From Actinomycetota bacterium (GTDB lineage: Bacteria > Actinomycetota > Acidimicrobiia > Acidimicrobiales > Ilumatobacteraceae), in contig RFST01000003.1 in NCBI GenBank assembly GCA_009923855.1, positions 1 to 36,897 on the forward strand: a stretch of DNA of 36,897 nucleotides, read 5' to 3'. Made by a program: the position numbers and the translations under genes. The notes under the pieces are model-generated. The model had not been told where the DNA came from. It searched no databases and worked only from the letters and a program-made list of their open reading frames with translations. Positions 25,273 through 35,587 of the stretch are shown piece by piece. The first letter of the stretch is position 1. Each line of letters starts with the position of its first letter.

Positions 25273-26217
25273 TCAGTCGCGGTCGTCGCGGGCCGGTGTG
25301 GTCTCGGCAAAGGCGCGTTCGACGTCGGCCGTGGTGAGCGGCACCTCGGCATTACCCACGATTTCCGCATCGGGCATACGGCTGCCGCGGCGGTAGTCGT
25401 GGCTGGTGCGGAAATCTTTGGCGAACTGGGTGAAGTAATAGATCACCAGGCCCCACAAGAAGATGCCGCCACCGAGTTTCATGAACGCACCCGCAAGCTG
25501 CTGGTCGGATGCCACCGAGATCCCCCATAGCCGCAGTGGTACCTCGTAGGCGGTGTACACGGTGCCCTCGGCGAAGGTGAGCCAGGCCGCGGGGATGGTG
25601 GGCACAATCGACTGGGCAAACAGGTAGATCATCTTGCCGACCACACCGATGCGGAACTCCTCAATGGGCCCGATGACCGGCATCCACATCAGCAATGAGG
25701 TGACCACAACCGCAACATGCAGCCCGTAGTGCAGGGCACCGTTCCAGAAGCCATCACCGACCGAGGCGTTCACCAGCAACGGGATGTGGGTGAGCATGGC
25801 CACACCGTTGAACACCACGCCGGCGACGACGGGTCGGGTGAGCCAGCGCACCGCGCGATACAGGCCACCGTCGCCGATCAGAATCCGCATCAGCCATGCC
25901 GGAGTGGCCAGCAGTGCAAGCGGTGGGATGAAGAAGCTGAGGGCCATGTGCTGCACCATGTGCACGGAGTACAGGTAGTCCTCGCTGATGTCATGCACGG
26001 GCCAATCTGATGACACCCACAGCAGCGCCATGGCCGCACCGAAGGCATACAGATTGCGTCGCGTGACGACCGGTTGCCCAGCGGGCACGGCCTTGGGGCC
26101 GATGACGCGGACGGTGTAGATGTATGCCGCAGTCAGGAAGCCGACGAGCAGCCACACCTCGGGGTGCGCCACGAAATCCCACGGGTCGAGATTCCAGTTG
26201 TCGGTCTGGGCGACCAT
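25273..26217 (-). CDS. ctaG: Cytochrome c oxidase assembly protein CtaG (caa3 type)
   Basis: The 314-residue polytopic membrane protein matches the CtaG_caa3 family. It has SSDWPVHDISEDYLYSVHMVQHM, a His-rich motif that may bind copper, then LLATPAWLMR, MLTHIPLLVNASV, HYGLHV and MWMPVIGP. This family, distinct from the Cox11-type CtaG, is needed for active caa3/aa3 oxidase and probably helps insert CuB into subunit I. The ATG at 26217 has GGAG five bases upstream. It is the last of the oxidase gene run (40 bp after ctaF). The C-terminal tail is charged and cytoplasmic. Confidence 0.92.
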   Translation of the reverse strand: MVAQTDNWNLDPWDFVAHPEVWLLVGFLTAAYIYTVRVIGPKAVPAGQPVVTRRNLYAFGAAMALLWVSSDWPVHDISEDYLYSVHMVQHMALSFFIPPLALLATPAWLMRILIGDGGLYRAVRWLTRPVVAGVVFNGVAMLTHIPLLVNASVGDGFWNGALHYGLHVAVVVTSLLMWMPVIGPIEEFRIGVVGKMIYLFAQSIVPTIPAAWLTFAEGTVYTAYEVPLRLWGISVASDQQLAGAFMKLGGGIFLWGLVIYYFTQFAKDFRTSHDYRRGSRMPDAEIVGNAEVPLTTADVERAFAETTPARDDRD

Positions 26218-26257: not shown

Positions 26258-26587
26258 TCAGGACGAGAAGAAATGCATGCTCAGCAAGAACACGCCATAA
26301 CAGCCAATGGCTAGGAACATGCCGATGTAGAACATCAACCCGAACAACTTTGAGTCGAACTTCAGGTGCATGAAGTACAAGATCACGCAGAAGAACTTGA
26401 TGCCCATCAGGATCAACAGCAGCGGGAGGAATGCCGCACCGAGTTGATCTTGGGTGTAGCTGAGCGCCACTTCGATGGCGGTCACCACGGCCAAGAAGAC
26501 GGCGATCTTCACGTAGCCCATGTCGGACAGGCCATGAGACTCGCCCTCGTGGGTGTCGTGATGCTGGTCGGTGTCGGTGACGGTCAT
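26258..26587 (-). CDS. ctaF: Cytochrome c oxidase subunit IV (COX4_pro/CtaF type)
   Basis: The 109-residue protein has a His/Asp-rich N-terminus (DTDQHHDTHEGESHGLSD) and three membrane spans, with KIAVFLAVVTAIEVALSY, GIKFFCVILYFMHLKFDS and FYIGMFLAIGCYGVFLL. The LYFMHLKFDS motif is diagnostic for the prokaryotic subunit IV family. It stabilises the subunit I/III core. GAGG lies upstream of the ATG at 26587; the longer frame to 26650 overlaps ctaE and is not needed. The canonical CtaD of this operon also carries a fused two-span tail of actinobacterial subunit IV type, so two subunit IV-like elements are encoded. Confidence 0.92.
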   Translation of the reverse strand: MTVTDTDQHHDTHEGESHGLSDMGYVKIAVFLAVVTAIEVALSYTQDQLGAAFLPLLLILMGIKFFCVILYFMHLKFDSKLFGLMFYIGMFLAIGCYGVFLLSMHFFSS

Positions 26588-26607
26588 GATGTCCTCGCTG
26601 GTGGGCG

Positions 26608-27234
26608 TCAGGCCGGGATCAGGTAGACGAGGGTGAAGATCAGAATCCACACCACGTCAACGAAGTGCCAGTACAAGCCGAACAGTTCCACGGTTTCGGC
26701 TTTGTCGCCGGGCACCCGATTTTTGCCGATCATGCCGACCAACGAGGTCAACATGATGATGCCAACGGTGACGTGCACACCGTGGAATCCGGTGAGCGTG
26801 TAGAAGCTGGATGAGAACAGGCTCGTGGTGAAGCCGAGGCCCTCGCGGTAGAAGGTGGTGAATTCGTACACCTGGCCGGCCACGAAGAGCGCGCCGAGCA
26901 GGGCCGTCACCATCAACCAGACCTTGGTGTTGCGGTCGTCTTTGCGGTGCGCAGATGACACTGCGAGCACCATCGTCAGTGACGACATGAGCAAAACGAA
27001 GCTCGACGCCGAGGTGAAGGGAATGTCCCACACCTGGTCGGGGCCCAAGTTCTCCGAGTGGCGACCGCGGTAGAGCATGTAGGTGGAGATCAGGCCGCCG
27101 AAGAGCAGGCACTCCGACCCGAGGAACATCCACATCGCCAACTTGTTGTTGGACAGACCAGTGGAGGTGTGATGCGCCCCGTGGTCGTCGTGGGCGTCAT
27201 GTCCGGTGGCCGGGGCCACGGCGGTGTCAGCCAT
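26608..27234 (-). CDS. ctaE: Cytochrome c oxidase subunit III
   Basis: The 208-residue protein has a His-rich N-terminus (TGHDAHDDHGAHH) and five membrane spans. Diagnostic motifs are MWMFLGSECLLFGGLISTY, GQVYEFTTFYREGL, FYTLTGFHGVHV and the final YWHFVDVVWILIF. It binds lipid and keeps proton uptake stable in subunit I. The ATG at 27234 overlaps the ctaD stop by 8 bases. The frame continues to 27345, but that part is antiparallel to nothing sensible and overlaps ctaD. All conserved Glu/His positions are present, in contrast to the subunit III-like protein at 31702-32280. Confidence 0.95.
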   Translation of the reverse strand: MADTAVAPATGHDAHDDHGAHHTSTGLSNNKLAMWMFLGSECLLFGGLISTYMLYRGRHSENLGPDQVWDIPFTSASSFVLLMSSLTMVLAVSSAHRKDDRNTKVWLMVTALLGALFVAGQVYEFTTFYREGLGFTTSLFSSSFYTLTGFHGVHVTVGIIMLTSLVGMIGKNRVPGDKAETVELFGLYWHFVDVVWILIFTLVYLIPA

Positions 27235-29239
27235 GAGCGGCGACCTCCAGTTCGGTGCCGGCAGCCGGCGGGTCGTAGTCGTCGTCGGGTGCGGTGTGGG
27301 GCTCCATGCCCCAGCCGTACATCGACAGCAGCGCGAGTGCCGCACCGCCGGCGATCAGCCAGATGTTGTAGATCACGCCGTAGGCCATGATCGGCAGCGC
27401 GAGCGACAGTAGAATCGGCCAGTACGACGGCGACGGCAGATGGATGTGGCTGTCTCCCTTGGCCTCCTCTTCAGCAACGATCTCTTCTGCGGTGGCCACC
27501 TGGTGGTAGTCGTGATGATCGCCTTCGCCACGGTCTTCATACTTGCGATGGAAGAACTCGTCGAGGTGGCCCACGGTGGGGGTCCGGTCGAAGTTGTGCT
27601 CCTTCGGCGGGCTGGTGGTAATCCACTCGAGGCTGCGGGCATCCCACGGGTCGAGCGGCGCCTTCTGCGTGCCCTTGCGATGCGACACGTAGATGTTCAC
27701 GAAGAACATCAGCACGCCGAGCGCGAGGACAAACGATCCGATGGAGGCGATCAGGTTCCAGAACCCGATGTTGAAGAATCCTTCACCGGCGCGGTTCTCG
27801 GTCCACCTGTACATACGGCGCGGCTGGCCTTGCAGACCGAGCACGTGCATCGGGCCGAAGGTGAGGTTCATGCCGATGATGGTCAGCCAGAAGTTCCAGC
27901 GTCCCATGCGCTCGTTCAGCATCTTGCCGAACATCTTCGGCCACCAGTAGTAGAGGCCGGAGAACAGACCGAGCACGGCACCACCGAAGATCACGTAGTG
28001 GAAGTGCGCCACGATGTAGTAGGTGTCGGTCTGCTGAGTATCCGACGGCGCAACCGAGTGGGTGACGCCGGACAGACCACCGATGGTGAACTGCACGATC
28101 ACACCGACCGCGTACAGCATGGGCACGGTGAACTTCAGTTTGCCGCCCCACATGGTCATCACCCAGTTGATGATCTTGACGCCGGTGGGAATGGCAATGG
28201 CCATGGTGGCCACGGAGAACACGGCCACCGAGATGGGGCCGAGGCCGGAGGCGAACATGTGGTGGGCCCACACGCCCCATCCGACGAAACCGATCGCGGC
28301 GCCCGAGAACACCACCAGCGGGTAGCCGAACAGCGGCTTCTTCGAGAACACCGGCAGCACTTCGGACACGATGCCGAAGGCCGGCAGAACGATGATGTAC
28401 ACCTCGGGGTGACCGAAGATCCAGAAAAGGTGCTGCCACAGCAGCGGGTCGGCACCGGCTTCCACCGAGAAGAAGGTGGCATCGAAACTGCGCTGGAACA
28501 TCAACAGGAACAGCGCGACGGTGATGACCGGGATGGCGAACAGCAACAGGAACTGCACCACCATGATCATCCAGGTGAAGATGGGTACCTTCATCAGGCT
28601 CATGCCGGGTGCGCGCATGTTGATCACGGTGACGATCAAGTTGATGGCGCCGGTGAGCGATGCGATACCGGTGATCTGCAGGCCGAGCGCCCAGAAGTCC
28701 ACACCGTTGGTCGGCGAGAAAGCCACCGAGGAGTTCGGGGCGTACATGAACCAACCACCGTCGGCGGCACCACCCAAGATCCAGGAGGTGTTCAAGAACA
28801 GGCCACCGAACAGGAACGTCCAGAAACCGAACGCGTTGATGCGGGGGAAGGCCACGTCGCGGGCGCCGATCTGCAGCGGCACCATGTAGTTGGCGAAGGC
28901 GGCCGCCATCGGCATGACAAACAGGAACACCATGGTGGTTGCGTGCATGGTGAACATCTGGTTGTAGGCATCAGCCGACAACACGGTGCCGTCGGGGCCG
29001 GCGAGCTGCAACCGGATCAGCAGGGCTTCGATACCGCCGATGACGAAGAACGCCATGGCGACGACGCCGTACATGATGCCGAGCTTCTTGTGGTCGATGG
29101 TGAACAGCCACGACTTCCAGCCGGTGGTTTCCACCGGGCGACGGAACACACCGTAGGAGGTGGCCGGTGTGGCCACCGCAGGTGCGGCGTCGGGGCTGAC
29201 GACAGCAGGTGTGTCGGTCGGTCGTTCGATGATGGCCAT
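27227..29239 (-). CDS. ctaD: Cytochrome c oxidase subunit I, with subunit IV-like C-terminal fusion
   Basis: The 670-residue catalytic subunit has all redox ligands. His 99 (MFTMHATTMVF) and His 414 are for low-spin haem a. His 277 with cross-linked Tyr 281 (GHPEVY) and His 326/327 (WAHHMF) are for CuB. His 412 (VAHFHYVIFGG) is for haem a3. The D-channel region (QIGARDVAFPRINA) is intact. After the usual end (LEWITTSPPKEHNF) comes a His/Glu-rich linker. A two-span tail follows at about 600-650 (LPSPSYWPILL, then LIAGGAALALLSMYGWGMEP), resembling the C-terminal half of actinobacterial subunit IV. GAGG upstream of the ATG overlaps the ctaC stop. Confidence 0.97.
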   Translation of the reverse strand: MAIIERPTDTPAVVSPDAAPAVATPATSYGVFRRPVETTGWKSWLFTIDHKKLGIMYGVVAMAFFVIGGIEALLIRLQLAGPDGTVLSADAYNQMFTMHATTMVFLFVMPMAAAFANYMVPLQIGARDVAFPRINAFGFWTFLFGGLFLNTSWILGGAADGGWFMYAPNSSVAFSPTNGVDFWALGLQITGIASLTGAINLIVTVINMRAPGMSLMKVPIFTWMIMVVQFLLLFAIPVITVALFLLMFQRSFDATFFSVEAGADPLLWQHLFWIFGHPEVYIIVLPAFGIVSEVLPVFSKKPLFGYPLVVFSGAAIGFVGWGVWAHHMFASGLGPISVAVFSVATMAIAIPTGVKIINWVMTMWGGKLKFTVPMLYAVGVIVQFTIGGLSGVTHSVAPSDTQQTDTYYIVAHFHYVIFGGAVLGLFSGLYYWWPKMFGKMLNERMGRWNFWLTIIGMNLTFGPMHVLGLQGQPRRMYRWTENRAGEGFFNIGFWNLIASIGSFVLALGVLMFFVNIYVSHRKGTQKAPLDPWDARSLEWITTSPPKEHNFDRTPTVGHLDEFFHRKYEDRGEGDHHDYHQVATAEEIVAEEEAKGDSHIHLPSPSYWPILLSLALPIMAYGVIYNIWLIAGGAALALLSMYGWGMEPHTAPDDDYDPPAAGTELEVAAHG

Positions 29240-29248
29240 ATCAGGACC

Positions 29249-30577
29249 TCACTTACGCTCGAGCAGGTAGGCAATGAGTTCGTCGATCTGGTCCTCGGAA
29301 AGTGCCAGATAGGGCATGCCGCGCGTCTTGCCGTCGGTTTCGGTCAGCATTTCGGCATCGGCATACATCGGCTTCTTGGCCGGTGAGTTGCGGAGCCATT
29401 CGCGCAGTTCGATTTCGTTCAGACAATCCTCGGTGACGCCGGCCAGGTAGCGCTCGCCGAACACCTCGGGGTCCGCTTCCCACACGTCGGCTCGACACTC
29501 GTCGGTGAGCAGATCGAAGGTGGCGCCAGCGAAGGTGTTGCGACCCATCAGATTGGTGAGGTTCGGTGCCGCGCCGGAGTACACGAACTGGTCGGGGTAC
29601 GACACCACCAAGGTGTCGTCATCGGGGTCGTCGGTGCCACGGTCATCCACCAGCCCGTTCACCTGGTGGCAGCGCGAGCACTGAGTGATGAAAGTGGCCT
29701 CACCAGCGGCAGCAAGGGTGCCTTCTTCCGGCGACGTATACGGCTCGAGTTCGTTGTCCAACCACTGCTGGAAGTGGTCGGGTTCCAACACGATGGTCTC
29801 CATGCGCATGTTGGCGTGACTGAGGCCGCAGAACTCGGTGCACTGCCCGGCGTAGATGCCAGGCGTCTCCGATGAGAGGCGCAGGTAGTGCACGCGCCCG
29901 GGCACCATGTCGCGCTTGCCGTTCAGGCGCGGGATCCAGTAGCTGTGAATCACGTCGCGGCTGGTACCACGCAGCAACACCTTGGTGTCGGCGGGGATTA
30001 CCAACTGGCCGGAGGTGACGATCGGAGCAGCCTCAGCGGCGGTGGGGGCGAACCCGCAGATAGTGCCATCGTCTTCGACCTCGTAGTCGTATTCCCACCA
30101 CCACTGCTGGCCGGTGACGTTGATGACACATTCGGTGTCGTCGGTGTCGGCGAGGGCCATGACCACGCCCACGGTTGGGATGGCGATCGCGGCGAGGATC
30201 ACCGCCGGGATAGCGATGAAGAGATACTCGATGACGGGCTTGCCATGGGTCTGCTCGGGCATCGCCTGTCCCTTGTCGCGGAACCGCAGCACGGTCACGG
30301 CTAGCAGGCCGAACACCAACACGCCGACGATGCCAGCGGTGAGGAATACCGGCCACTGCAGATCATGAATCTTCTGTGCGTTCTCGCCGACGGGTTGCCA
30401 GGTGTCCTGCGGTGCGTCGGTGGCGCAGGCTGACAGGGCAATCGCCGCGCCAATGGCAGCGGCGATACCGGGAATACGACGGCGACGGCGGGGGTTGACG
30501 GCGCTCACGCGGTCAAGTGTATGCGCGTCATGTGAGCCGTCCGAGATGGTGCGATCGTGATTCGTGCGACTGCTCAT
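29249..30577 (-). CDS. ctaC: Cytochrome c oxidase subunit II with C-terminal cytochrome c domain
   Basis: The 442-residue lipoprotein-like subunit has a lipobox (ALSAC, Cys 51), two membrane spans (about 74-97 and 116-142) and a CuA cupredoxin domain. The CuA ligands are complete: His 211, Cys 246, Cys 250, His 254 and Met 257 (GQCTEFCGLSHANM), and VTGQQWWWEYDY forms the electron entry patch. A cytochrome c domain follows, with CSRCH at 300-304 and a long insertion. It accepts electrons from cytochrome c or the bc complex. The ATG at 30577 overlaps the upstream stop (ATGA). A GTG at 30508 would give a more typical 28-residue signal peptide and is a real alternative. Confidence 0.95.
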   Translation of the reverse strand: MSSRTNHDRTISDGSHDAHTLDRVSAVNPRRRRRIPGIAAAIGAAIALSACATDAPQDTWQPVGENAQKIHDLQWPVFLTAGIVGVLVFGLLAVTVLRFRDKGQAMPEQTHGKPVIEYLFIAIPAVILAAIAIPTVGVVMALADTDDTECVINVTGQQWWWEYDYEVEDDGTICGFAPTAAEAAPIVTSGQLVIPADTKVLLRGTSRDVIHSYWIPRLNGKRDMVPGRVHYLRLSSETPGIYAGQCTEFCGLSHANMRMETIVLEPDHFQQWLDNELEPYTSPEEGTLAAAGEATFITQCSRCHQVNGLVDDRGTDDPDDDTLVVSYPDQFVYSGAAPNLTNLMGRNTFAGATFDLLTDECRADVWEADPEVFGERYLAGVTEDCLNEIELREWLRNSPAKKPMYADAEMLTETDGKTRGMPYLALSEDQIDELIAYLLERK

Positions 30578-31686
30578 GGCACGACCACCTCGAGTTCAGC
30601 GCTTGACACCCCTGGGACATAGAACCGGTATCCGCCGATATCGGTGATCTCAGGCGCGAAGCTGGGAACAGCGAAATTCACGGTGATCAATTGCACCCCA
30701 CCTGGGTCGACCAAGGTCGTGCAAATTCGCGGTGGCGACCCCTCGTAGTCGGGCGCAAGGTCGATCACGAGGCGGCGCTCCTCATCGGAGTCGTTACGGA
30801 ACAGCAAGTTGTTCGCGTTTGAACGGGGGAGCTGCAAGGCACTGGAGCGATCGGTCTCATCACCGGGCTTGCGGTGCACAAGGGTGCCAGCCGCGGTGAG
30901 GCGCACCTCAGCGTTGCCGGCCTTACCGGCAACCGTCTGGCTGGCGTGCTTGTCGGCGTAAGTTTTTTCGGCGCCGCACTCGTCCTTGGCAGCGATGTAG
31001 GCGGTGGTCTCGTGTTCGTGGATATGCCGTTCACCGTTCAGGCCGCTGACGGCGCCGCCGCCGATGAGCACCACGCCAGACACGGCGAACAGCGCGGTGA
31101 TTTTCGGCGCCGTGATCGATCGCTTGGCACCGACGATGGCGCCCAAGATCAACACGATGGTCGCCACGATCGAGAACGCCACGATGGTGGATGTTTTTGA
31201 TGGCACGCCGAGCATCACTCGCGAGAACGAGTAGATCACGATGCCGAGTCCAATCGCGGCAGCCACCGGCATTTCTGCGGTGTAGGCCAGGCGGCTTCGA
31301 ACTTCGGCGTTATGGCTGGCATCGGCGCTGGCCCGCTCGGACCACGCCTGCAGAATCCATTCGGCGATGCCGGCAACGAACAGGATCGCACCGAGGATGA
31401 AGATCGCCGGGTAGGTCACCAACCCGAGGGTCATGGTGGTGACGGCAAGGCCGAGGGCGAAGGGCCACATGCTGGCACCGGGACGCGCGGCGTTCGCGGC
31501 CGCACCGTCGAAGGTGTCGGGTTCGTCGGCAAACACGTTCGCGTCGCGGGTGAAGATCACGATGCCGGCGAGCGTGGCGAGCGCCACGGTGGCCGAGACC
31601 AACCCGATGGTGCCCATCGTGCCTTCGGCGAGAACGCCGTAGGCCACAGTGCCGGCAAGCGACGCGACGGCTCCGGTGGTGAACAT
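30574..31686 (-). CDS. Polytopic membrane protein with cupredoxin-like tail lacking copper ligands
   Basis: The 370-residue protein has about seven hydrophobic spans (near 3-20, 26-45, 73-92, 94-114, 139-157, 167-187 and 196-216), then an extracytoplasmic domain (about 217-370). That domain opens with HIHEHE (221-226). It ends in a beta-rich stretch (LLFRNDSDEERRLVIDL, then GGYRFYVPGVSSAELEVVVP) that reads like a cupredoxin fold. The Cys-x2-His copper motif is absent. Cys 238 and the Cys in PRICTTLV could pair. I do not recognise a named family. It is 15 bp after the subunit III-like gene and overlaps ctaC by 4 bases. It may play the subunit II part in a redox-inactive paralogous complex; this is inference. 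Confidence 0.7.
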   Translation of the reverse strand: MFTTGAVASLAGTVAYGVLAEGTMGTIGLVSATVALATLAGIVIFTRDANVFADEPDTFDGAAANAARPGASMWPFALGLAVTTMTLGLVTYPAIFILGAILFVAGIAEWILQAWSERASADASHNAEVRSRLAYTAEMPVAAAIGLGIVIYSFSRVMLGVPSKTSTIVAFSIVATIVLILGAIVGAKRSITAPKITALFAVSGVVLIGGGAVSGLNGERHIHEHETTAYIAAKDECGAEKTYADKHASQTVAGKAGNAEVRLTAAGTLVHRKPGDETDRSSALQLPRSNANNLLFRNDSDEERRLVIDLAPDYEGSPPRICTTLVDPGGVQLITVNFAVPSFAPEITDIGGYRFYVPGVSSAELEVVVP

Positions 31687-31701
31687 GTCAGACCTGGGTC
31701 C

Positions 31702-32280
31702 TCACTTGGTGACGTAGACGACGAACCACACGGCCGAGTAGGCCGCGGCGATGAAATACCAGTACATGGCGTGGGCGCTGATGAGTTCGACCTCACGGTC
31801 GCGCCCGCCGAGGGAGCGGAACGCCGCCACCACGGTGTAGACGAGGCCGGCGATGACCAACGCGGCCATGGTTCCGGTCACGGCATAGAACAGGGCGCCG
31901 TAGGCGCTGTCGGCCAGCACCACACCCATGTCGACGTACACGAACGCTTGGGCGTTCACGTAGGCAAGACCCATCAAGAACACCACGCCGAGGGCGAGGG
32001 CGGTGTGGGCGCGGTCGCTGCGACGCGCGGCGTACACGGCCCACTGGGCGAAGAGGCACAGTGACCACACGGTGATCAACATCACGTTGGAGGGCACCTC
32101 GGGAATGATGTAGCTGTCGGGGAAACGCTCCCCTGCCGACACCACTCGTTCGCGGAGCAGCACCCAGATGGCGAGCATGCCGCCGATGAGCATGGTGCCG
32201 GCCACGCCTGCGAGGGCGGTGGCCACGAAGACCTGCCGGCGCGGGGCCGGGGCAGCAGCAGCGGGCAATGCGAGCGTCAC
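31702..32280 (-). CDS. Cytochrome c oxidase subunit III-like protein, divergent
   Basis: The 192-residue protein has five membrane spans and the subunit III pattern: an N-terminal GTMLIGGMLAIWVLLRER, then MLITVWSLCLFAQWAVYAARR, ALFYAVTGTMAALVIAG and a last span with AMYWYFIAAAYSAVWFVVYV. Where the canonical subunit has FYTLTGFHGVHV and YWHFVD, this one has FYAVTGTMAALV and YWYFIA, so the conserved His positions are gone. The GTG at 32280 overlaps the stop of the subunit I-like gene as GTGA and is clearly the right start; the longer frame to 32388 is not credible. It is probably a partner of that subunit I-like protein. Confidence 0.8.
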   Translation of the reverse strand: MTLALPAAAAPAPRRQVFVATALAGVAGTMLIGGMLAIWVLLRERVVSAGERFPDSYIIPEVPSNVMLITVWSLCLFAQWAVYAARRSDRAHTALALGVVFLMGLAYVNAQAFVYVDMGVVLADSAYGALFYAVTGTMAALVIAGLVYTVVAAFRSLGGRDREVELISAHAMYWYFIAAAYSAVWFVVYVTK

Positions 32281-33899
32281 GACGGGCTCCCTTCGGTGCC
32301 GGCGAGGTTGTCGAGTTCGGGTTCGGCCGAGGACACCGTGGGCAGCGCCTCGAAGTTGTCGGCCGGGGCGGGCGAGGCAATCGTCCACTCGAGCGTGTGG
32401 CCACCCACCGGGTTGGCCTCCACCGTGTCGTCGCTGCGCGACGAGGCGATGGCGCCCAAGGTGGCGAGCACGGTCAGTGCCATCAAAGCGTGACCAACGA
32501 GCACGATGCCGTTCAAGATGGTGGATGCGCCGTCACCGTCGTAGATGCCCGCGCCTGCAGGCTGGTCGGTGAAGCCGGCGATGTAGTGCGGCAGCGATGC
32601 CGCCACGGTGGCGATCAGCCCAAGGCCGGCCAGTGGCAACACTTTGCGGTCGGCCACCTGGATGCCCCACAGTTTCGGCGCCCAGAACACCAGAGCACCC
32701 AGTCCGCCGAGCAGGGCGCCGTAGGTGACGTAAACGGCGGCGGCCTCTTCGAACACGGTGCCGGCCAGTTCGAGGTCGTCGATGGCGGCCAGCAGGCTGC
32801 CCGCGGCGCCAGCGAGGATCATCAGCGTCGACACCACACCGAACAGCAGTCCGGCAGAGATCTTCGGGGTGACACGATCGCCCTCGGGCTTGGCGACGAT
32901 GGCGCCGAGCGCCAGCACCACCACGGCGCCGAGCAGCGGCAGACCGTAGAAGAACAGCGCGATGACCGCTTGTTTCACGACATCGGCGCCCTCAGCGGAG
33001 AAATCCACGCCGAAACGCTGCTGTTGTGCCACTCCGGCGAAGGCGCCCACGGCGATCAGACCAAGACCGGCGAACACCACTTGGCGCAGCGGATGGCGGC
33101 GTCCGAAAGCCACCGGCAAGGTCTCGGCCAGCAGGCCAAGCGCGGGCAGCGCGTAGATGTAGGTCATCGGCTGCGACCAGAACATCGAGATCCAGTCACC
33201 GATGGCCTCGGGGCCGCCAAAGGTGAGGCCGGCGTTGCGGGTGTCGACGAACAGCAGCACGATCGCGCCGAACATCACGGGCAGGGCCACCAGCAGTGCG
33301 AGCGATTGCACCAGCGCCGACCAAGTCATGAACGGCACACGCCGAAGGGTCACGCCGGGAGCGCGGGTGGTGAGCACGGTGGTGGCCACGCTGGCCGCCG
33401 AGGCGAGCAGGCCGAGAACGGTGAGGCCGAGACCGGCAAGGAACATGTCGACCATCTGATCGCCGCCACCAATTCCACCGTTGGCGGCGAGAGCGACGAT
33501 GGTGAGGGTGATGCCGCCGAGCCAGGAGTAGAAACCGGTGAGGGCCAAGCGCGGGAACGCCATGGCGCGTGCGCCCACCTGCATCGGTGCGATTGCGATC
33601 GCCACACCGAGCGTGACCGGGATGGCCATGGCGAACACCAGGCCGATGCGATGCAGTTGGAACAGCTGCAACAACGCACCACCGTCGAGCACGTTGCCGG
33701 CATCGTCGGTGCGCTCCAGACCGAGCAGGGCACCGATGACGGCCACTGCCACTGCGGCCAGCAGGCCGGTCACGGCGTAGAGGCGGCCGATCTTTTTGTG
33801 GTCGGTGGACGTGGCCCAGTCGGCGGCTCGGGCCACAAAGGTGCCCACGGTGCCATCACCGAGGGCCGAGGGCCGAGCGGGGGTGTCGATCGTGGTCAT
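32277..33899 (-). CDS. Cytochrome c oxidase subunit I-like protein lacking CuB and haem a3 ligands
   Basis: The 540-residue protein aligns with canonical subunit I from STDHKKIGRLY to the C-terminal HTLEWTIASPAPADNFEALP. Conserved landmarks include MQVGARAMAFPR, TTRAPGVTLRRVPFMTW and FWAPKLWG. His 83 (QLHRIGLVF) matches the first haem a ligand. The other ligands are missing. GHPEVY is replaced by SQPMTY (Gln 243), WAHHMF by VAQQQRF (291-296), and AHFHYV by AAAVYV (386-391) with no His. The D-channel Asp and Asn (GARDVAFPRIN) are Ala and Leu. It cannot bind CuB or haem a3 normally, so oxygen reduction is excluded by sequence. About 12 spans remain. It heads the operon and overlaps the subunit III-like gene. 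Confidence 0.88.
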   Translation of the reverse strand: MTTIDTPARPSALGDGTVGTFVARAADWATSTDHKKIGRLYAVTGLLAAVAVAVIGALLGLERTDDAGNVLDGGALLQLFQLHRIGLVFAMAIPVTLGVAIAIAPMQVGARAMAFPRLALTGFYSWLGGITLTIVALAANGGIGGGDQMVDMFLAGLGLTVLGLLASAASVATTVLTTRAPGVTLRRVPFMTWSALVQSLALLVALPVMFGAIVLLFVDTRNAGLTFGGPEAIGDWISMFWSQPMTYIYALPALGLLAETLPVAFGRRHPLRQVVFAGLGLIAVGAFAGVAQQQRFGVDFSAEGADVVKQAVIALFFYGLPLLGAVVVLALGAIVAKPEGDRVTPKISAGLLFGVVSTLMILAGAAGSLLAAIDDLELAGTVFEEAAAVYVTYGALLGGLGALVFWAPKLWGIQVADRKVLPLAGLGLIATVAASLPHYIAGFTDQPAGAGIYDGDGASTILNGIVLVGHALMALTVLATLGAIASSRSDDTVEANPVGGHTLEWTIASPAPADNFEALPTVSSAEPELDNLAGTEGSPS

Positions 33900-34098: not shown

Positions 34099-35067
34099 TC
34101 AGACGAGAACGTCGAGGGTGAGCGCGGCGAACAACACACTCACATAGGTGATCGAGAAGCCGAACACCCGCATGGAACGGGCCTCGGTGGGTTCCCGACG
34201 CAACCATTCGCAGGCCCACAGGAACGCGGCGCCCAATGCGGCGGCTGAGATCACGTAGATCGGGCCGAGCCCGGCGCCATCACCGGCAATGGTGGTGTCG
34301 CCGTTGGCCACGGGCACCAATACCAATGTGGTGGTAACGAGAGCGATGGTGTGGCCAATCATCTGGACGTAGGCGTTCTTGAACGGCACGACCGCGGGCA
34401 GCATCGGCACGTTCGCCGCCCGATAGTCGTCGGCGTAGCGCATGGCGAGCGCCCAGAAGTGCGGCGGAGTCCAAAAGAAGATGGCCGCGAAGAGCACCAC
34501 GGGGGTCCAGGTGAGGTCATTGTTCACCGCGGCCCAGCCGACCAGCACTGGCACGGCTCCCGCCGCACCACCGATCACGATGTTCTGGCGACTGGTGCGC
34601 TTCAACCACAGGGTGTAGACCCCCACATAAAACGCGGTCGCGGATGCGGCGAGGATGGCCGCGAGCAGGTTGGCCCCGGCCCACAGCACCGCAAAAGCCG
34701 CAATTTCTAGGGACAGGGCGAACACCAGCGCTTCTCGTGGTTGCACCACGCCGGTGACCAGCGGCCGGGTGCGGGTGCGTTCCATCAACGCGTCGATGTC
34801 GCGGTCGACATACATATTGATGGCGTTGGCACCACCGGCGGCCAGGCTGCCGCCGATCAGGGTGATGATGACGAGTCCAAGACCGGGCCATCCGCCGTCG
34901 GCGAGCACCATGGTGGGCACGGTGGTGATCAGCAAAAGTTCGATGATGCGCGGTTTGGTGAGCGCGATGAATGCGCCGACACGGCTGCTGGGAGCGCGGC
35001 GGCTGCCGTGGGCCACTCCTCCGGGGGCAAGCCGCGAGGGGACGAGGGGGCGGCTGCCGAGGCTCAT
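34099..35067 (-). CDS. ctaB: Haem O synthase (protohaem IX farnesyltransferase)
   Basis: The 322-residue UbiA-family prenyltransferase has about nine spans. Its two Asp-rich motifs are [22 protein letters not shown] (diphosphate/Mg binding, first loop) and [15 protein letters not shown] in the later loop. [13 protein letters not shown] is diagnostic for CtaB. It adds a farnesyl group to haem B, the first step to haem A needed by the oxidase downstream. The ATG at 35067 has a perfect AGGAGG three bases upstream, which rules out the longer frame to 35346. The 199-bp gap to the subunit I-like gene (33900-34098) shows no clear terminator or promoter. Confidence 0.95.
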
Positions 35068-35245
35068 GGTCCTCCTAGCGTACGGCCACCCCGCTGTAGC
35101 GGCCAACGCCGGCTCGGGTCGTGCGTGTGTGCATGTTGACAATGTGGCCCCATGCGGCGTCACCGCCGAGGTGATGGCAACCGAGCTGGCGCATGGCCGT
35201 TGGGTGACGGTTGAGCCAGTCACCGCTTCGGGGCACACTGGGTTG

Positions 35246-35587
35246 GTGAGCAGTCGGCCCGAGCGCAGCGCAACCCGTGTCTGCGCGGTGGCCGTCCGGG
35301 CGTCAATCGTCGAGACCGCCCCGGTCGTTGATGCCGATGCCGACACCGCTCAGGATCGGCCGTGGAAGGTCATTGTGTGGAACGACCCGGTGAACCTCAT
35401 GAGTTATGTCACCTTCGTGCTGCAGAAACTGTTCGGCTACGACCTCGACACTGCAACAGCGCTGATGCTCGAAGTGCATCACGATGGCCGTGCGGTGGTG
35501 GCCGACGGTGGCCGCGAAGAAGCCGAAATGCACGTGTTCCGGCTACACGAACATGGGTTGTGGGCCACGATGGAGCACGACTCGTGA
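35246..35587 (+). CDS. clpS: ATP-dependent Clp protease adaptor ClpS
   Basis: The 113-residue protein has the ClpS core: [29 protein letters not shown] (N-degron pocket with Asn-Asp-Pro), [37 protein letters not shown]. It delivers N-end-rule substrates to ClpAP/ClpCP. The N-terminal tail is unstructured. The start is uncertain. GTG at 35246 follows a possible -35 (TTGAGC, 35212-35217), a 17-base spacer, CACACT as a poor -10, and six bases to the GTG, a leaderless layout. GTG at 35288 would give a 99-residue form. DUF2017 follows 31 bp later, the usual actinobacterial arrangement. Confidence 0.92.

Follow-up and report, generated by a model that had tools for sequence, protein, structure and literature searches.

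A ligand-free paralogue of oxidase subunit I in the caa3 operons of Acidimicrobiales

Few membrane enzymes have been studied as thoroughly as the haem-copper oxidases, and the six ligand histidines of their subunit I are treated as defining. The window analysed here, a whole contig of 36.9 kb, carries on its minus strand a caa3 oxidase operon with two genes for subunit I: ctaD, whose product has all six histidines, and a second gene, COX1', whose product has one. The question raised by this locus is what a subunit I that has lost its haem and copper ligands does beside an intact one.

A subunit I homologue without its ligands

COX1' (32277-33899, minus strand) encodes a protein of 540 amino acid residues with a 12-TM oxidase fold. 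The frame opens with ATG and contains no internal stop; a sequence-only reading of the window had already called it intact. The full-length alignment with CtaD described in that reading also stands: against the CtaD encoded in this operon (27227-29239, minus strand) it runs end to end at 33% identity. The protein matches the Pfam COX1 family (PF00115) at 8.9e-33 and covers positions 1-504 of the 504 in the TIGR02891 CtaD model, scoring 179 bits against an equivalog cut-off of 670.75. The AlphaFold model (AF2, family alignment) has a pLDDT of 91.5 and a pTM of 0.93. Its best Foldseek match is the Corynebacterium CtaD, 7qhm_D, at a TM of 0.83, and the Mycobacterium CtaD and subunit I of E. coli bo3 are matched as well. 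The PF00115 match, the AF2 model and Foldseek together give COX1' both A-type haem-copper oxidase homology and the 12-TM fold; that is, COX1' is a full-length A-type subunit I homologue.

The ligand positions read HHHHHH in canonical CtaD and HQQQAV in COX1'. Five of the six histidines are gone and, as had been read from the window, His83 alone remains. The CuB and proximal a3 positions are occupied by Q, Q, Q and A in place of four histidines, and the bis-His pair of the low-spin haem is also broken, with Val opposite His83. Alignment with CtaD confirms the earlier description of the motifs: GHPEVY has become SQPMTY, WAHHMF has become VAQQQRF and AHFHYV has become AAAVYV, while the GAR..AFPR, TRAPG and LEW..SP..NF segments are kept. 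An alignment that placed the histidines elsewhere in the haem pocket would have overturned these assignments; none of the alignments did so. The claim that the oxygen-reducing centre has been removed is thus borne out by the ligand losses, from sequence alone and without activity data.

Residues of the proton channels and the propionate arginines, overlooked in the sequence-only reading, are affected as well. The COX1' of the window has lost the D-channel Asp, Glu278, the K-channel Thr and Lys, and both propionate Arg residues; the equivalents of Asp124, Lys354 and Glu278 are A, A and M, leaving neither the D and K channels nor Glu278. All of these residues, like the CuB histidines, are invariant in 54 canonical CtaD sequences and are lost from most of 56 COX1' sequences. 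Nearly all of the 56 keep DHK, the AFPR Arg, the RAPG Arg and Gly, W-PK-G (PK..G) and LEW-SP-NF. The His83 position is taken in many members of the family by Q, Y, F, E, A or L. Because the position is not conserved in its own family, selection probably does not maintain His83 as a haem ligand, as far as the alignment can tell, and a one-ligand haem protein is unlikely. This weakens one of the roles offered in the sequence-only reading, and the loss of the D, E and K residues weakens another, the canonical proton path; scaffold and assembly factor remain.

A single-protein search of genome contigs returned nine close relatives of COX1', and a near-identical relative of the window (L136, 98% identity) stands in another record. 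From L136 the window's genome is inferred to be of Ilumatobacteraceae type, within Acidimicrobiales. By the Nei-Gojobori method, applied to close pairs only, dN/dS is 0.07 between the window and L136, 0.08 between L138 and L139, and 0.20 between L137 and L189 (partial); for comparison, CtaD gives 0.03-0.04. A neutral ratio would have refuted the proposal that selection maintains COX1' for a role other than oxygen reduction. At about 0.07 the result came out against neutrality, and the proposal is further supported by homologues found across the order. With the frame intact and ratios of 0.07-0.20, COX1' shows neither the broken frame nor the neutral evolution of a pseudogene.

The shadow set and its distribution

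On the minus strand, the gene order is ctaB, COX1', COX3', IV'/cup, ctaC, ctaD, ctaE, cox4, ctaG. The sequence-only reading covered one gene of a set of three, and the parallel duplication of subunit III and of the CtaF-like subunit went unnoticed. COX3' (31702-32280) is a divergent subunit III paralogue, supported by Pfam COX3 at 6.5e-08, aa3_CtaE_Actin at 1.9e-12 and the family alignment; the listed ORF extends over 31702-32388, and the GTG start at 32280 is inferred. IV'/cup (30574-31686) consists of a CtaF-like segment of 4 TM, a further 3 TM, and a C-terminal cupredoxin-like domain without copper ligands. Its match to Cyt_c_ox_IV, at 7e-4, is below the cut-off, and the cupredoxin domain is supported by the AF2 model with Foldseek cupredoxin matches, plus alignment. 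These three genes form a shadow set (30574-33899) coupled to ctaC-ctaD-ctaE-cox4-ctaG. Of the active partners, CtaC (29249-30577) is a subunit II fused to cytochrome c, identified by profile matches, and CtaD is the canonical subunit I; they are followed by the canonical subunit III, CtaE (26608-27345), the COX4_pro subunit IV (26258-26650) and the caa3 assembly factor CtaG (25273-26217). The haem O synthase gene ctaB (34099-35346, start codon uncertain) lies upstream, outside the shadow set. The stop and start codons of COX1' and COX3' overlap as GTGA and those of IV'/cup and ctaC as ATGA, which suggests translational coupling. The C-terminal extension of the window CtaD matches Cyt_c_ox_IV (PF12270); the active subunit therefore carries a fused CtaF-like element.

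Conservation of COX1' is concentrated on the cytoplasmic face. Columns with a conservation of 90% or more in CtaD reach the same level in COX1' at 16 of 39 positions in cytoplasmic loops, at 2 of 21 in periplasmic loops and at 16 of 142 in TM helices. Mean conservation is higher in helices 1-5 than in helices 8-12. In oxidase structures, subunit III contacts helices 1-5, and subunit II contacts mainly helices 8-12. On this general knowledge, the pattern would fit a shadow set with a subunit III and without a full subunit II.

The sequence-only reading had proposed a search for homologues with the same ligand losses, asking whether they always sit beside an active oxidase. In Acidimicrobiales, COX1' is upstream of CtaD and on the same strand in 60 of the 60 loci that have a caa3-type CtaD and enough upstream sequence, so that a cofactor-free paralogue is co-encoded with the active subunit in every testable case. 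Three more loci are cut by contig ends and stand outside this count. The count is biased, since most of the 60 loci were found via COX1' similarity; in a subset picked for weak COX1' hits, COX1' is present in all eight with upstream sequence. The genomes are mostly metagenome assemblies. The usual order is COX1'-COX3'-IV'-CtaC-CtaD-CtaE(-CtaG). At one locus, L060, COX1'-COX3' is present and ctaCDE was not seen downstream, and at another (L183:5641-7820, minus strand) the canonical ctaD is split over two frames, probably by an assembly error. The loci read in the order that hold only another oxidase type have no COX1'. In the other orders of the class, the shadow set is absent upstream in 20 of 20 loci of the same oxidase operon. 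In orders that lack the set, the gene after ctaG encodes a short membrane-anchored cupredoxin with a relationship to the second half of the CtaF-like protein (L201:2338-3141 and L212:3159-3944, both minus strand).

COX1' and CtaD distances are correlated (r 0.78; 0 of 2000 permutations as high); therefore, the pair has largely been inherited together, with COX1' evolving about 2.5 times faster by distance. High-scoring matches outside the order were considered as members of the family and rejected: they are ordinary oxidases, HHHHHH where sequences were read, the lower-ranked matches having been only partly read. It follows that raw bit score is an unsafe test of membership. A tie to a complex III was likewise not upheld, as NrfD hits, for the alternative complex III, occur here and there without following the shadow set, and split cytochrome b occurs with and without it.

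Ligand loss within the family and in a second subunit I

None of the 75 COX1' sequences examined has the CuB triad, and five have a single His at one of its three positions. Both haem a histidines are kept in 13 of the 75, six of which also keep the a3 His; about half (38) have none of the six. In the tree, a branch with a support of 100 separates the COX1' rows from all CtaD. Nearest to CtaD is the group with HRAGHH-type ligands (the HR group), together with one other long row, L081. In this basal group, the CtaF-like IV' protein retains an intact type-1 copper cupredoxin (L076:12058-13074, minus strand; L077:5629-6633, plus strand; L079:12273-13292, minus strand), a domain that persists without ligands in Ilumatobacteraceae and is absent from most families. 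Because the group nearest CtaD keeps haem ligands without CuB, the tree suggests that CuB was probably lost first, then haem a3 and then haem a, with the reservation that the root is uncertain and the branches are long.

Other orders of Acidimicrobiia have a ligand-free subunit I of another kind. A cbb3-like (CcoN) subunit I lacks conserved ligand His in 20 of 20 sequences, and its gene (L198:8093-10237, minus strand; L219-L255) adjoins a cluster for split cytochrome b, Rieske protein and cytochrome c, with bc genes beside it in 17 of the 17 loci read (L239-L255). In one examined case a FixO-like cytochrome c is fused to the subunit and a second cytochrome c comes next; in genome G577 the fusion partners are three helices and a type-1 copper cupredoxin, and the gene lies directly upstream of ctaC. 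The cbb3-like subunit-I part found no match in the window's order among the matches listed. This protein resembles COX1' in being a haem-copper oxidase subunit I without ligand His beside respiratory genes, and it differs in its C-type ancestry and in lying by a bc cluster, outside the oxidase operon. It arose independently of COX1', and the presence of two such ligand-free subunits within a single class leads us to infer a shared structural need. The window's own genome encodes an unusual bc complex with split cytochrome b (petB/petD-like; L256:3047-7588, contig C334), in a cluster that also encodes a dicluster 4Fe-4S protein and a Rieske protein and includes a divergent cytochrome c gene.

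Possible roles of the module

We propose, at about even chances, that the COX1' module is a cofactor-free structural partner bound to the active oxidase or to a supercomplex, as follows. COX1' would be a haem- and copper-free pseudo-subunit I that joins COX3' and the CtaF-like protein in a membrane module shaped like an oxidase core. The module would be made from the operon of the active caa3 oxidase and would bind that enzyme, in one of two ways: in an asymmetric oxidase dimer of which it is the inactive half, or in a bc-caa3 supercomplex where it acts as a structural spacer. The confident full-length fold prediction, the missing cofactor and proton-path residues, purifying selection, strict operon linkage, co-inheritance with CtaD across the order and the conservation of the cytoplasmic face are observations; the three-protein complex, its binding to the oxidase and its structural role are inferred, without proteomics or co-purification data. 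The recurrence of a ligand-free, cbb3-like subunit I beside the bc complex fits a recurring structural need. Evolution about 2.5 times faster than CtaD is faster than might be expected of a tight interface and counts against one, and since other orders run the same caa3 oxidase without COX1', the partner is not strictly needed by the oxidase.

The main rival, unlikely in our estimate but the one that has to be taken most seriously, is that COX1'-COX3'-IV' acts as an assembly factor, a transient template or chaperone that binds new CtaD, CtaE and CtaC while haem and copper are inserted and has no place in the mature enzyme. The set neighbours ctaB and ctaG within one gene cluster, which suits such a factor; conservation of the cytoplasmic face could mean contact during insertion, and fast evolution suits a transient binder. 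However, the same caa3 oxidase is built in other orders without the shadow set, and three membrane subunits in one coupled operon would be unusual. Structural partner and assembly factor cannot be separated by sequence alone.

More doubtful is a role for COX1' with haem a, passing on electrons from the cupredoxin domain or sensing redox state or oxygen. The sequences with both haem a histidines and the intact cupredoxin of the basal HR group speak for it, but half of the family has none of the six histidines, the window COX1' has a single non-conserved one, and the cupredoxin is degenerate or missing outside that group; this reading may be true of the basal group only. Still less probable is an ion or proton conduit, or an uncoupling valve, through a gutted core lined by a polar network of Gln. 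Gln is indeed the commonest replacement (35 of 56 at CuB1, 37 of 56 at CuB2 and 22 of 56 at a3), but it is not invariant, both CuB1 and CuB2 are Gln in only 32 of 75, and the D-channel Asp, Glu278 and K-channel Lys are lost. Finally, ligand losses and fast divergence might be those of a decaying pseudogene or an assembly artefact, which we reject: frames are intact in dozens of families and many assemblies, motifs and operon order are conserved, dN/dS is low, and the near-identical L136 comes from a separate record.

The structural-partner proposal has a precedent in CydB of cytochrome bd, a haem-free paralogue of the haem-bearing subunit and a proven subunit with a structural role. COX1' may work likewise, although it belongs to a different superfamily and its partner is undemonstrated beyond operon linkage and co-inheritance. 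The nearest structural relatives are in the bcc-aa3 supercomplexes of M. smegmatis and C. glutamicum, the source of the best Foldseek match, which share the CtaD/CtaE/CtaF set. Subunit I of those supercomplexes is catalytic, and the genomes studied here differ from them in having split cytochrome b and a caa3 oxidase. Compared with A-type subunit I in general (CtaD/CoxA; PF00115, TIGR02891, NF050116 cyt_aa3_Actin), COX1' is alike in fold, length, loop motifs and neighbourhood; it differs in lacking CuB, a3 and complete haem a ligands, D and K channel residues and propionate Arg, and scores far below the equivalog cut-offs. The fold is known. A cofactor-free, order-wide pseudo-oxidase locked into the operon, or a ligand-free cbb3-like subunit, is not described in the open-licence literature searched; an account in a subscription journal is not excluded.

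It is tempting to go further and suggest that Acidimicrobiales respire with an asymmetric oxidase, an active caa3 core permanently paired with a complete and cofactor-free pseudo-oxidase core (I', III', IV'), and that sister orders answer the same need by placing an independent, dead cbb3-like subunit I on the bc complex; this wider picture we hold only tentatively, and with less conviction than the proposal of a structural partner. At the level of PF00115, annotation names COX1' genes "cytochrome c oxidase subunit I"; therefore, the numbers of oxidases counted in this group, in genomes and metagenomes alike, are likely too high. The members of the COX1' family form a natural series, with haem ligands at one end and none at the other, and make it possible to test whether oxidases can acquire a structural pseudo-partner. 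If the proposal is true, a cofactor-free form maintained by selection across an order, in the operon of the enzyme that does the work, would be to oxidases what CydB is to cytochrome bd.
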